A stretch of DNA of 64,000 nt from Oceanidesulfovibrio marinus (GTDB taxonomy: Bacteria > Desulfobacterota > Desulfovibrionia > Desulfovibrionales > Desulfovibrionaceae), in the NCBI RefSeq assembly GCF_013085545.1, contig NZ_CP039543.1:2108001-2172000 (forward strand), read 5' to 3'. The translations under genes were made by a program, and so were the position numbers. Positions 2,315 through 6,972 of this stretch are shown one piece after another. Below the pieces are notes generated by a model, which saw only the letters and a list, made by a program, of their open reading frames with translations, was not told where the DNA came from and did no database searches. Positions within the stretch are counted from its first letter, which is position 1; each line of letters opens with the position of its first letter.

Positions 2315-4054
2315 TCAGGCCGTTGCATCACGCGCGCTGAGCATGCAGGTGTTCACCTCTCCCGGAGGAACCATGGGCCAGACCGCGGCATGCTCGGCCA
2401 CGGGAACGCGGATCAGCCGCGGGCCATGCGCCGCCAGCGCCTCGGCAAGCATGGCCGGGCCGTCGCAGGCCGTGGCCAGGTCCCACGCCTGGATGCCGAA
2501 GCCCCGCGCCACGGCGGCGTAGTCCGTCCCCGCGCAAAAGCCCGAGGAGCCGTCGCGGCCACCATGGAAGAGGTCCTGCTGCTGCCGGACCAGTCCCAAC
2601 CCGCCGTTGTCCATGAGCAAAATGGCGATGTCCGCGCCGGTCTCGCGCAGCGTGGCCAGCTCCTGCACGTTCATCAGCAGGCTGCCGTCGCCGGTGACGA
2701 GCAGAACGCGCTCTCCCGGTGCGCTCATTGCTGCGCCGAGGGCCGCCGGCAGGCCAAAGCCCATGGTGCCCAGGCCGCCGGAGGTGAGCCACCTGCCCGG
2801 CCGCTGGAAGGGATAGGCCTGCGCCGTCCACATCTGATGCTGTCCCACGTCGGTGACGAGGACGGCGTCCGGTCCCATGATCTCGCCGGCCATGCGGATG
2901 ACCGTGCGTGGCCCGTCGCCGGGATCGTGGCACGGCGCGTCCTGCGATTCCGACTCCGCGCAGCTCCCGTGCCGTGTGCGCCCGTGGCATGCACCCTCCA
3001 GCATGACCAGCAGAATGGCCAGCACCTCGCCGGCGTCGCCGGTCAGGAAGATGTCGCCGTCGTGGCGCCGGGCCGAGGGGTCGGCGTCGATGCGCACGAT
3101 GCGCGCCTCGGGACAGAAGCCTTCCATGCGTCCGGTGGTGCGGTCGCCCAGGCGCGCACCCACGCACAGTAACACGTCGCTGGCCGCAATGGCCGCGTTG
3201 GCCGCCGGCGTGCCATGCATGCCGCACATGCCGAGATAATCCGGATGGTCATGCGCCACGGCGCCCAGGCCCAGCAGCGTGGACGTCATGGGCGCGCCGA
3301 TCTCCCTGGCCAGACGCGCCGCCAACGCACCGGCCTGGGGCGAGCGCACGGCCCCGGCGCCCAGCAGGATGACCGGCCGCTCGCACCGCTTAAGCTGCTC
3401 CGCGGCGCGGGACAAACCGGCCATGTCCATGACGCACTGGTCCGAAGCGACGTGCTGCTCAAAGTGAAAGGAGCGCGCATGCCCGTTGCCAGTGCGCTCC
3501 AGCTGCACGTCCTTGGGAACGTCGATGAGCACTGGCCCGGGCCGGGGCGAGGCCGCGACCTCGAAGGCGAGGTTCAGGAGCTCCTCCAGCTCGTCGGCGG
3601 ATTCCGCCCGCCACGCCGCCTTGACGGCCGGCTTGCTCATGGCCGTGATGTCCGCCTCCTGAAAGGCACGGGTGCCGAGCAGCGCACGCGGCACCTGGCC
3701 CGTAATGGCGACAACAGGAACGCCGTCGGCATGGGCGTCGGCCAGGGCGGTGAGCAGGTTGGTGGCTCCAGGGCCGGATGTGGCGAAGCAGACCCCGGGA
3801 CGACCGGTGAGCCGCGCCGCGCCCTGGGCCATGAAACCGGCGGCCTGCTCGTGCCGGACCAGCACGTGCCGCAGGATCTCGCTTTTGCCCAGCGTCTCGT
3901 ACAACGGCAGGTTGGCTCCTCCCGGAATACCGAACACCTGACGCACGCCGTGATCTTCCAGGGTGCGGACGATGCACTCCGCACCCGTGGGTTTATGGAA
4001 GATGGCGTGGGCGTCGGCCATCTCCTCCGGCCGTGTCTTTGAAGATTGCAGCAT
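2315..4054 (-). CDS. ilvB: acetolactate synthase, large (catalytic) subunit type
   Basis: A 579-residue thiamine-diphosphate enzyme. It has the N-terminal pyrimidine-binding domain (FGIPGGANLPLYE, with the catalytic glutamate in RHEQAAGFMAQGAAR), a central domain, and a C-terminal diphosphate-binding motif GDGSLLMNVQELATL. The ending GLVRQQQDLFHGG resembles IlvB/IlvG. Acetolactate synthase makes the first committed intermediate of valine, leucine and isoleucine. The start at 4054 is preferred because AGGAGG lies just upstream; an in-frame extension would read through a terminator hairpin. No small regulatory subunit gene adjoins it. Expression is very probably controlled by the attenuator directly upstream (4101-4293). 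A related TPP decarboxylase cannot be fully excluded, but the leader supports the branched-chain assignment. Confidence 0.85.
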   Translation of the reverse strand: MLQSSKTRPEEMADAHAIFHKPTGAECIVRTLEDHGVRQVFGIPGGANLPLYETLGKSEILRHVLVRHEQAAGFMAQGAARLTGRPGVCFATSGPGATNLLTALADAHADGVPVVAITGQVPRALLGTRAFQEADITAMSKPAVKAAWRAESADELEELLNLAFEVAASPRPGPVLIDVPKDVQLERTGNGHARSFHFEQHVASDQCVMDMAGLSRAAEQLKRCERPVILLGAGAVRSPQAGALAARLAREIGAPMTSTLLGLGAVAHDHPDYLGMCGMHGTPAANAAIAASDVLLCVGARLGDRTTGRMEGFCPEARIVRIDADPSARRHDGDIFLTGDAGEVLAILLVMLEGACHGRTRHGSCAESESQDAPCHDPGDGPRTVIRMAGEIMGPDAVLVTDVGQHQMWTAQAYPFQRPGRWLTSGGLGTMGFGLPAALGAAMSAPGERVLLVTGDGSLLMNVQELATLRETGADIAILLMDNGGLGLVRQQQDLFHGGRDGSSGFCAGTDYAAVARGFGIQAWDLATACDGPAMLAEALAAHGPRLIRVPVAEHAAVWPMVPPGEVNTCMLSARDATA

Positions 4055-4100
4055 GTGGCGCCTCCTGGCTGGTGTGGCTCCCGCATGCGCCGGTGAAGAA

Positions 4101-4137
4101 AATAAAAGCCCCCACCGGCGCGCTGCCGGCGGGGGCT
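4101..4137 (-). terminator. intrinsic terminator of the ilvB attenuator
   Basis: On the reverse strand AGCCCCCGCCGGC pairs with GCCGGTGGGGGCT over 13 base pairs (one G-U) around a 5-base loop and is followed by TTTTATTTT. It lies between the leader-peptide stop and the ilvB ribosome site, where a Rho-independent attenuator belongs. Confidence 0.88.
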
Positions 4138-4164
4138 CGTTGAATCCGATCAATGAAATACGAC

Positions 4165-4293
4165 TTACGGACACGCATCCCGACGGCGCGGCGCACCAAT
4201 ACCTACTACGACTACTACGAGCTGTTGGCCGGATAGGACGGCCGCGAAGCCGGCAGGGCGGCTGGAGTGCGTGGTCATGGTCGGGATAAACAT
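4165..4293 (-). CDS. branched-chain leader peptide (IvbL-like)
   Basis: A 42-codon reading frame upstream of ilvB whose product contains LVVVVVGIG: one Leu, five Val and one Ile codon nearly in a row. Four of the five valine codons are GTA, unusual in this GC-rich genome, which should make the run very sensitive to charged valine tRNA. The first ATG (4293) has GGAAAG roughly 12 bases upstream; a second in-frame ATG at 4278 lacks one. The stop lies 28 bases before the terminator stem. Leader peptides of this type control ilvB and ilvG in enterobacteria: stalling at the run lets an alternative structure form and prevents termination. The amino acid run, terminator and target gene are seen; the mechanism is inferred. 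Confidence 0.8.
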   Translation of the reverse strand: MFIPTMTTHSSRPAGFAAVLSGQQLVVVVVGIGAPRRRDACP

Positions 4294-4545
4294 CTGTTCG
4301 CTCACTTTCCTACCCCATGCTCCAATCCTGCACAGGTTGTCAAGCGGCAACCTGCTTTTTTGAAACCCCAGCACCGTGTTATCTTTTTCCAATAATGGAA
4401 ATACACTTAAAACAAATGGACTTATATTTTTCTGAACTATGATTATTGCTGTTACGAAAATGAAAAATAATATATACAAAATCAGCAATCGATACCGCAC
4501 AGACAAACTACCAAACCACAACTTTGTTCGAAAGGGGAGCACGCG

Positions 4546-6972
4546 ATGTTCCAGAAATTCGTTGAACATCTCAGGATCGGGCACAAGCTTGCCATAATGA
4601 GCATCTTTTTCTTTCTGCCCATTGCAGTCCTCCTCTATCTGATGGTCGCTGGAATTCAATACGACATCAGATTCTCAACACTCGAAGTCTACGGCAATAC
4701 TTATCAACGGCCTTTGGAAAAACTACTTGCCGATGTACAGAACCATCGCCTTTACAAGGTCACCGAATTTGACAAAAGCCTTGGCGATCTTGAACAATCT
4801 ATAGCCACTTCACTTCAGGAGTTGCAGGCGATCCACGATGCTATCGGAGTCGATTTGCAGTTCACACCGGAAGGCCTGGACAAGCGCGGCCGTGGCGGCC
4901 TTGTACCGGAGCGGCTTGCCGAGCGCTGGGACGCCGCCAAATCGGCAGAGGATATTTCGGCGTACGATACGGTGATTGCCGACGTGCAGGAAATGATCAC
5001 CCACGCGGGCGACACCTCCAACCTCATCCTGGACCCGGATCTCGACAGCTACTACCTGATGGACATGACGCTACTCGCCCTGCCCCAGACGCAGGCCCGG
5101 CTTGGGGATATCATGCTCGCCGGCGCCAATATTCTGGGCAACCCGATGGGGCCTGCGAAACGCGTGCAGATGGCCGTCTATGCGGCGCAGCTCCAGGACT
5201 CCGACATCGCCCGCGTCCTGGGCAGCGCCGAGACCGCGCTCAACGAAGACCAGAACTTCTACGGCGTCTCCGAGACCCTGGCCAAAAACCTCCAGCCGGC
5301 GCTGGACGACTACAAACAGAAGAACGCGATCTTCCTGGGTATGCTGGGGGAAATCGCGGACCCGATGCTGCCCCAGCCGTCCAGAGACAAGTTCTTCGAG
5401 GCAGGCCTTGCGGCGCGCCAGTCCGCCTTCGACCTCTGGGACACAACGGCGCAGGAGCTGGATATCCTGCTGGGCAAGCGCATCGACTCATACAAGAGCC
5501 GCCGGCTCATCTCCCTGGTGCTCGCCGGCATCTCCATTCTCGTGGCCCTGACCCTCACCGTGCTTGTGGGCCGCAGCATAACCAGGCCGGTCGCCCAGCT
5601 GGACAACTTTACGGACAAGGTGGCCCATGGCGATCTGACCGCCGTCCTCGCGGGCCGCTTCTCCGGGGAGCTCAGGGACCTGGCCGGGAACATCAAGGCC
5701 ATGGTCGACGAGCTCAAGCAGCGGCTGGGCTTCTCCCAGGGCATTCTGGACGGCATCACCATGCCCTGCGTCGTGGTCGACCAGAACAGGAAGCTCACCT
5801 TCGTCAACAACCAGCTCCTGGACCTGATGCGCAAGGGAGGCAGCCCGGAGGGCTTCCTGGGCAGCGAGCTCGCCTCGTTTTTCCCGCGCAACCCACGTAT
5901 CGCCGAGACCATACTGAGTTGCCTGAGCTCGGAAACTGTTGTGCTCGACCACGAGATCCAGGGGCAGGACATGGACGGGCAGCCCTTTGACATCCTGCTC
6001 TCCGTCACCCCGGTCTACGACCTGGACAACGCCTTGCTCGGCGTTTTCGCCCAGTTTACCGTGCTCACCCGGATCAAGGAGCAGGAGGCCAGGCTGCGCG
6101 AGCAGAACACGATCATCTCCGGCGCGGCGGAACGCGCCCGCTCCATCGCCGCCGCCGTGATCCAGGCAGTGGAGGGCCTTTCGGCCCAGGTGACCCAGGC
6201 CACGGAAGGAGCCGGCAGACAGAAGGCGCGCTCGTCCGAGACGGCTGCGGCCATGGAGCAGATGAACTACACTGTGCTGGAGGTGGCGAAGAACGCTGGT
6301 TCTGCGGCCGAGCAAGCTGAGTCCGCCCGGGAGCGCGCACAGGAGGGACGGAGCATTGTCGACCAGTCCGTCACAGCCATCGGCCGAGTGGCGGAGCTTT
6401 CCGAGGAGCTGCGAAATAACATGGCGGAGCTGAGCACCGAGGTGAGCTCCATCGGCCGGATCATGGGCGTTATCTCGGACATCGCCGACCAGACCAACCT
6501 GCTGGCGCTGAACGCAGCCATCGAGGCGGCGCGGGCCGGCGAGGCCGGCCGGGGATTCGCCGTGGTCGCCGACGAGGTGCGGAAGCTGGCGGAAAAAACC
6601 ATGGTGGCAACCCAGGAGGTGGGCAGCGCGATCGAGTCCATCCAGAACGGCGCGCAACGGAACGAGCACAGCGTGGTGCAGGCGACCGAGGCCGTGGAGG
6701 AGGCCAAGACCCTGTCCGGCCGGTCCGGAGAGGCGTTGGCCGCTATCGTCTCGCTGGTGCAGTCCAACACCGACCAGGTGCGCTCCATCGCCACGGCGGC
6801 CGAGGAGCAGTCCACGGCCAGCGACGAGATCAACCACGCCATCGACGAGATCAACGGGATCAGCGACGAGACCAGCCAGGGCATGAACGGCGCAGCCGCC
6901 GACGTGACGGCCCTGGCCGAGCAGGCACGCAAGCTGGAGGTCGTCATCGAGGAGCTCGTGGCCACGTGCTGA
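4546..6972 (+). CDS. methyl-accepting chemotaxis protein with PAS domain
   Basis: An 808-residue chemoreceptor. Membrane helix 1 is at about residues 15-37, a long helical periplasmic domain follows to about 317, and membrane helix 2 is at about 320-343. A HAMP segment ([10 protein letters not shown]) runs to about 395, then a PAS domain ([16 protein letters not shown]) to about 510. The C-terminal signalling hairpin contains the conserved tip [19 protein letters not shown] near residues 658-676. It would sense a ligand outside, and possibly a second signal through the PAS domain, and control CheA. No CheW-binding or CheR tether pentapeptide is seen at the C-terminus. GGGGAG precedes the ATG. 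The ligand is unknown. Confidence 0.95.

Follow-up and report, generated by a model that had tools for sequence, protein, structure and literature searches.

The ivbL attenuator of Escherichia coli is a textbook example of a classical enterobacterial regulator. Its enzyme, AHAS I, has been discussed with respect to a Trp residue that, according to the accessible part of PMC5727371, is a key site for 2-ketobutyrate; AHAS I has Gln there and shows no preference. The same part of that source reports a second AHAS in Desulfovibrio that groups with AHAS I, and it traces AHAS I to a proposed duplication in Gammaproteobacteria, invoking horizontal transfer to account for Desulfovibrio; the string "attenuat" occurs nowhere in it. 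As far as the available portion of PMC1183508 goes, low general usage of regulatory codons raises the sensitivity of an attenuator, and an explanation by rare codons alone is called an oversimplification, with the thr leader as the case in point. No paper on an ilvB attenuator in Desulfovibrio was present among the matches listed in our literature search, which covered few subscription papers, and none joining Desulfovibrio, leader peptide and transcription attenuation was found in the literature searched. In their accessible parts, PMC545781 does not mention ilvB, branched, leader peptide or valine, and the main text of PMC2965389 does not mention Desulfovibrio, ilvB or ivbL. The family-wide presence of the element described here, its kinship with ivbL, its tie to a Gln-type AHAS and the reversal of its codon preference appear to be new.

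The locus lies in a stretch of 64 kb, the whole of which was analysed and is called the window below. Leader, terminator and ilvB are on the minus strand throughout (Table 1). As a sequence-only reading had claimed, a 42-codon leader contains LVVVVV, and four of the five Val codons (GTA GTA GTC GTA GTA, 4218-4204) are GTA, a codon that is indeed rare, making up 67 of the 1154 Val codons (0.06) in the long ORFs of the window. One Leu codon, CTC, directly precedes the run, and one CTA is found further upstream. The leader starts with ATG at 4293-4291 (alternative ATG at 4278-4276) and ends with TAA at 4167-4165. The strong terminator that had been noted after it is present, with G-C in 11 of its 14 pairs and TTATTTTCTT directly after the stem, and begins 26 nt past the leader stop rather than 28. 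ilvB follows as described, and the claimed spacing of 47 nt is close to the distance from the T tract: its ATG at 4054 lies about 46 nt past the tract and 51 nt past the stem. The proposed sensing of Leu, Val and Ile was too wide, because the single Ile after the Val run lies outside the regulatory run; the Val part and the Leu (CTA) part held.

Table 1. Coordinates of the features at the locus, in window positions.
Feature	Position	Strand	Basis
Inverted repeat CAGGTTG...CAACCTG over minus-strand TTGACA (4344-4339)	4333..4354		sequence
Leader peptide ORF, 42 codons, MFIPTMTTHSSRPAGFAAVLSGQQLVVVVVGIGAPRRRDACP	4165..4293	-	ORF list; same kind in relatives
Sensor codons Leu-Val5, CTC GTA GTA GTC GTA GTA	4204..4221	-	sequence, codon bias
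Proposed antiterminator 5' arm GCCG-U-CGGG	4179..4187	-	nascent-RNA folding; pairs with 4125-4133
Intrinsic terminator hairpin, 14 bp, 5-nt loop	4106..4138	-	hairpin search, folding; pairing kept in relatives
T-rich tail of terminator	4096..4105	-	sequence
AGGAGG ribosome-binding site of ilvB	4061..4066	-	read from sequence
ilvB, AHAS-I-type acetolactate synthase large subunit, 579 aa	2315..4054	-	TIGR00118, Pfam, Gln site

The product of ilvB contains the Pfam domains TPP_enzyme_N, TPP_enzyme_M and TPP_enzyme_C. The leader itself had no match in NCBIfam (best E 0.001) or Pfam (E 1), libraries that may hold no IvbL model. At gathering thresholds, Rfam 15 gave nothing at the window's element. 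The leaders of four related loci (L012, L034, L040, L184) had no Rfam match to the element either; the only family matched among them was IstR, in the E. coli record, and a known Rfam family was therefore ruled out. Given these results for the window and the four loci, the element could become an annotated RNA family. As for the surroundings, a divergent methyl-accepting chemotaxis gene starts at 4546. Three plus-strand genes (504-1154, 1251-1760 and 1763-2299) converge on ilvB; they encode a 1-Cys-peroxiredoxin-like protein and then two Sulf_transp membrane proteins, the second of which also matches DUF6691.

We consider the locus very probably an IvbL-type, ribosome-mediated attenuator that senses valine, plus leucine, and controls an AHAS-I-type gene. 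The valine attenuation put forward by the sequence-only reading is supported by the conserved leader and terminator, a possible antiterminator and the likeness to E. coli ivbL. From this arrangement we infer how the ribosome would stall, and transcription end or continue, in the cell. RNA polymerase would transcribe the leader with a ribosome close behind. When charged tRNA-Val is plentiful, especially the reader of GUA, the ribosome would clear the Val codons, arrive at the leader end and cover approximately 4187-4179; with this segment covered, the terminator (4138-4106) would form and transcription would end before ilvB. When charged tRNA-Val is scarce, the ribosome would stall on the Val run and leave 4187-4179 uncovered, and the free segment would pair with 4133-4125, allowing read-through into ilvB. 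The 5' arm of the terminator, 4138-4125, is common to the hairpin and the proposed antiterminator. The window's genome has one tRNA-Val gene each for UAC, GAC and CAC (among 48 tRNA matches), which should leave the UAC tRNA as the sole reader of GUA. The AHAS-I-type enzyme should supply valine and leucine, not isoleucine.

To assess conservation, 119 genomes of the window's family were searched, and 104 of them had a match at E ≤ 1e-80. The family set takes in every listed match scoring 456 bits or more, 62 in all (L004-L033 and L114-L145); the next match below it, at 442 bits, is of the canonical kind, and one locus of the set, L144, has a stop inside the gene. The Val run, whose conservation in relatives the sequence-only reading had named as its test, turned out to be conserved: a leader with at least three Val codons, then a terminator, precedes the AHAS-I gene at 62 of 62 family loci, the leader of L027 being set by hand in this count. 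Val codons number seven per leader in the median and three in the poorest leaders (L021, L023, L118, L120), at least five occur inside 12 codons in 54 of the 62, and the terminator starts 21-34 nt past the leader stop. When one automatic rule was applied with no hand-picking, 57 of the 62 loci passed, and the failures were L027 and four loci with weaker hairpins (L028, L117, L119, L128). The same rule was passed by all six AHAS-I loci that were listed when 247 genomes of other families in the phylum were searched, and by one of 22 canonical ilvB loci, which is L199 by elimination. The predicted element is family-wide and not peculiar to the window's genome. The distance between terminator and gene is 82-94 nt in genus g38 (L026, L029, L033, L123, L126) and -24 to 49 nt at the remaining family loci, with gene starts extrapolated from the window protein.

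The folding check suggested by the sequence-only reading did yield a candidate antiterminator pairing. In the window, its arm is located inside the ORF because the leader stop is displaced downstream relative to the other family loci, and the pairing taken as a simple duplex is no better than shuffles (z -0.5), with 19 of 94 control stretches equally strong. In most relatives, the segment made up of the final two leader codons, the stop codon and the bases that follow (typically GCGYCG-UAG-CGGG) is pairable with the terminator 5' arm; the z against shuffles has a median of -2.2 over the 62 family loci and is below -2 in 36 of them and not in 26. The pairing was also evaluated on alignment A1 (57 rows, 54 distinct), which omits 13 family rows whose arms are displaced or odd (L007, L010, L016, L018, L027, L125, L129, L138, L141-L145), so that its antiterminator statistics lean to the common form. 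Also omitted were the non-family rows L035, L037, L043, L045 and L046 and the row L044, which has no Val leader; alignment A2 comprises the family rows of A1 minus the window (48 rows). On A1, 87.0% of the antiterminator cells were paired, compared to at most 58.7% when the partner was slid. Changes in both partners were seen in seven pairs (equalled in 15 of 500 shuffles) and in 14 cells (in 0 of 500), and the covariation score was reached by 0 of 500 shuffles, which ignore relatedness. For the terminator, 91.6% of the cells were paired and 24 showed double changes (0 of 500 shuffles, again ignoring relatedness); its pair types showed no excess, 444 of 500 shuffles being as high.

We then considered the folding of the nascent RNA, assuming that the ribosome shields 13 nt. 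The median share of the terminator 5' arm that is sequestered fell from 0.675 with the ribosome on the middle Val codon to 0.47 once it stood on the last one and to 0.295 once it reached the stop. Sequestration on the middle Val codon exceeded that at the stop by at least 0.3 in 46 of the 62 loci, and at the stop it was never higher by more than 0.1. The corresponding values of the window were 0.65, 0.66 and 0.46, a small contrast. With or without a stalled ribosome, its minimum-energy folds all contain the full terminator; a working switch would therefore have to be kinetic.

A displaced stop and a weak antiterminator would also be expected of a relict, that is, an open gene whose switch has decayed in a cell supplied by the canonical ilvBNC, an explanation we find unlikely but worth weighing. 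In its favor, the window has no recognised promoter and no detected ilvN: a search of ATG ORFs of 55-260 aa close behind ilvB found no ilvN, and a search for TTGAC-N15/19-TA before the leader, done with no shuffled control, found no promoter. However, ilvN was likewise undetected at nine other family loci (it was detected at 52 of the 62), and the promoter match is missing at eight others; ilvN characterises the operon, not the attenuator. The TTGACA at 4344-4339 has no -10 element at normal spacing, with TAGGAA 25 bases on, and was therefore not identified as a promoter. The hairpin search also scored the inverted repeat over it as a terminator on the plus strand; the repeat may be an operator or have arisen by chance.

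A relict would likewise agree with the long branch of the window's ilvB (length 1.09 in a quick tree) and with the absence of both AHAS-I gene and element from the only other species of the genus in the set. In addition, the same genome has a second synthase elsewhere, encoded in an intact canonical ilvB-ilvN-ilvC operon (L146; ilvC also by PF01450) with no Val leader before it. Against this explanation, ilvB is a full open frame that scores above the TIGR00118 cut-off (545 bits versus 538.35) and retains the catalytic Glu and the AHAS-I Gln. The window's sensor codons, terminator and T tail are intact nonetheless, as is a good ribosome-binding site, and model R2, whose 48 training rows all come from the family and do not include the window, still gives the window 42.8 bits (E 7.1e-8). 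The window's copy is among the more divergent of the family and may be drifting. A third PF02776 match in the genome (L147), judged by reading the locus, looks like a TPP enzyme of the sulfoacetaldehyde acetyltransferase kind. An apparent aldehyde dehydrogenase and succinyl-CoA synthetase-like subunits come after it, and the whole group (L147, 2677-7928, plus strand) may serve sulfonate breakdown.

At the 2-ketobutyrate site, the window enzyme has Gln (QQQ). The same residue was found in 82 of 83 AHAS-I-type rows, namely 61 of 62 from the family (L140 has Met), 6 of 6 other rows of the phylum, 10 of 10 from Pseudomonadota and 5 of 5 distant ones. Elsewhere the site is Trp in all 11 ilvG rows and in 30 of 33 canonical rows, the other three having Leu. 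Since such an enzyme would favor the Val/Leu branch, a Val/Leu leader without an Ile run would fit its presumed physiological role. An attenuator of the ilvL (AHAS II) type was rejected for the window, which has no Ile codons in the run and no Trp at the specificity site.

The quick tree separated 47 AHAS-I rows, as a clade (96), from the canonical and ilvG rows, and four distant Gln-type rows (L045, L048, L049 and L053) were placed outside this clade or weakly supported. A careful tree, from which the window, most other long-branch rows and the distant rows were excluded, united the AHAS-I rows in one clade (100/99). Within it, the Pseudomonadota rows together with L189, a row of the window's phylum, formed a clade (100/97) nested in the rows of the phylum (97/95). 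For the AU constraint, L189 was kept on the Pseudomonadota side, a choice made after the quick tree. A topology holding the family and the other phylum rows together was not rejected (p 0.154), so the tree is compatible with more than one direction of transfer.

This latitude in the order of transfer is one reason to consider whether the window's family and Enterobacteria evolved an attenuator of the same kind independently; another is that any Val attenuator requires GTN repeats and a GC-rich terminator. We regard such convergence as quite improbable. When 63 sources were scanned with R2, a model of family rows only, it found E. coli ivbL (L040) at 53.1 bits (E 2.7e-10) and all the other Pseudomonadota AHAS-I loci (10 of 10 in total, 27.4-66.0 bits, L037 partly), and the genes behind these loci fall within the one clade of the careful tree. 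In contrast, the 41 sources left after setting aside the window and the AHAS-I loci reached 22.2 bits at most, although several of them, of the ilvG type, have Val-rich leaders and terminators. The highest of these, L077 (E 0.005), has an ilvL-like leader, and its enzyme type is outside the comparison. R2 also matched all six loci from other families of the phylum (30.7-76.9 bits) and three of the five distant AHAS-I-type loci (L045, L053, L085), with no match on the other two, L048 and L049 from Spirochaetota. Inspection by eye revealed the same leader end and terminator arm in E. coli, Enterobacter, Trabulsiella and some Rhodocyclaceae. Taken as a comparison of sequences, the evidence favors the same element as E. 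coli ivbL and not a look-alike.

Some individual loci deserve mention. L190 (3136-3402, minus strand), from the same phylum, has tandem Val/Leu leaders before ilvB, each visibly with a terminator, and L053 (2674-2939, plus strand), from Breznakibacter, has tandem Val/Leu leaders before ilvB with two R2 matches; both look like double attenuators. The canonical ilvB locus L199 (G181, 3256-3353, minus strand), from another family of the phylum, has a Val-rich leader, LAVVVVRMG. Its R2 score is only 18.6 bits, and it may therefore be an independent attenuator.

A second model, R1, was run on the 119 family genomes. All of its 52 matches of at least 50 bits (G081 included) were directly before an AHAS-I gene; most of them are training rows, so this result is evidence for specificity only. 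At 30-50 bits, R1 matched ordinary terminators as well, and because L229 scored 44.4 bits and the window 44.2, an R1 score alone is no proof; R2 and the anatomy of the loci carry the assignment. When 19 stretches with R1 matches were inspected by eye, three contained AHAS-I attenuators (L228, L239 and L231, the last at a contig end with its gene out of view). The other 16 had no Val leader before an ilv gene, and control of other genes by the same element was rejected.

The composition of the leaders points to valine as the main signal. In the 62 leaders, Val accounts for 460 of 1814 codons (0.25), compared to 0.07 in ilvB, with 176 codons for Leu and 53 for Ile; sensing of Ile was ruled out on these counts. 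In the ilvB gene behind each leader, the Val codons that the leader uses average a frequency of 0.149, where 0.503 is expected (z -36), the strongest bias among the residues tested. For Leu codons, the mean frequency is 0.198 versus an expected 0.415 (z -14.5). Milder biases were found for Ala (-5.1), Pro (-5.9), Ile (-3.3), Lys (-2.9) and Cys (-2.8), and when the last five codons, which contain the antiterminator arm, were removed, the values were -0.7 for Ala, -1.4 for Ile and -3.6 for Pro (28 codons). The codon usage of Ser, Thr, Arg, Gly, Asn, Asp, His, Phe, Gln and Glu was inside 2 sd. With a leader cut slightly longer, GTA made up 185 of 485 leader Val codons versus 123 of 2557 in genes, and CTA 62 of 186 leader Leu codons versus 17 of 3545. 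The bias of the Leu codons is what might be expected if a signal other than valyl-tRNA were at work, be it a general slow-down of translation, leucine alone or Rho-dependent polarity. Given the enrichment of Val, the strength of its bias and the smaller numbers of Leu and Ile codons, we judge this distinctly improbable and retain sensing of valyl-tRNA as the preferred reading.

Codon choice was further compared between genomes of different composition. Ten genomes from three genera, in which GTG makes up less than 30% of the ilvB Val codons, were classed as AT-rich. In these ten, GC3 of the leader Val codons is 0.83 versus 0.21 in genes, and in the remaining 52 it is 0.42 versus 0.92. Seven other residues taken together have a GC3 in leaders and genes of 0.41 and 0.42 in the AT-rich class and of 0.86 and 0.86 in the others. 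Within the split classes, a few residues are off by 2-3 sd (e.g. Ser -2.3 and +2.9), compared to -13.2 and -32.5 for Val. Leader Val codons oppose the usage of host genes in GC-rich and AT-rich lineages alike, and most other codons follow it. This is a comparative test of the debated question of why attenuators use given codons.

Apart from the Val run of the leader, five consecutive Val codons occur nowhere in the 64 kb, whichever frame is read, and an order-3 Markov control gave two such runs in 20 simulated windows altogether, so that the run alone is unusual, not extraordinary. Its position before an acetolactate synthase gene, the terminator and the conservation in relatives together exclude chance. 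That the terminator merely stops stray upstream transcription behind a Val-rich ORF of accidental origin is hardly credible, being disfavored at the family level by the 62 of 62 loci, the codon bias and the paired arms.

A classical enterobacterial regulator is hereby extended to a whole family, probably the Desulfovibrio group, and it coincides with an enzyme trait, Gln for Trp at the specificity site. A serious, if still tentative, possibility is that the AHAS-I valine attenuator is an old cassette of RNA plus gene that moved between phyla with the enzyme. E. coli ivbL would then be a late copy, and the sensor codons would have been re-chosen in each host as the least-used Val (and Leu) codons. 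If this is true, ribosome-mediated attenuators in general could be recognised by a leader whose codon preference is the reverse of the host's.

Among the described systems, the ilvB-II motif and the ilvBNC attenuator of Corynebacterium resemble the locus in the control of ilvB by a leader, as far as the accessible parts of PMC10272879 and PMC11857589 describe them. They belong to another phylum and another operon, and the likeness is one of description alone. The ilvL attenuator of ilvGMEDA (AHAS II) in Gammaproteobacteria shares a leader for branched-chain amino acids, a terminator and an AHAS gene. It differs in its mixed Ile/Val/Leu leader (e.g. ISLVVISVVVIIIPP) and in the Trp of its enzyme (11 of 11), and R2 is blind to it, the best of 11 ilvG rows (L052) reaching 21.2 bits. 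The leaders of AHAS-I-type genes in Rhodocyclaceae, Fibrobacterota, Myxococcota and Bacteroidota are R2 matches and in some cases tandem (L190, L053). In comparison with E. coli ivbL, the window uses GTA where E. coli has GTG/GTC, its stop lies further downstream with the antiterminator arm inside the ORF, and no ilvN was found. Both have a Val-rich leader that ends in Val codons, Gly and then Ala-Pro before the stop. Both also have an AHAS-I gene directly downstream, with Gln at the W464 site. At the end of the E. coli leader, GCGCCG-UAG-GG is pairable with the terminator arm CCCCGCCGGCGC, as the corresponding segment is in most loci of the family described here.
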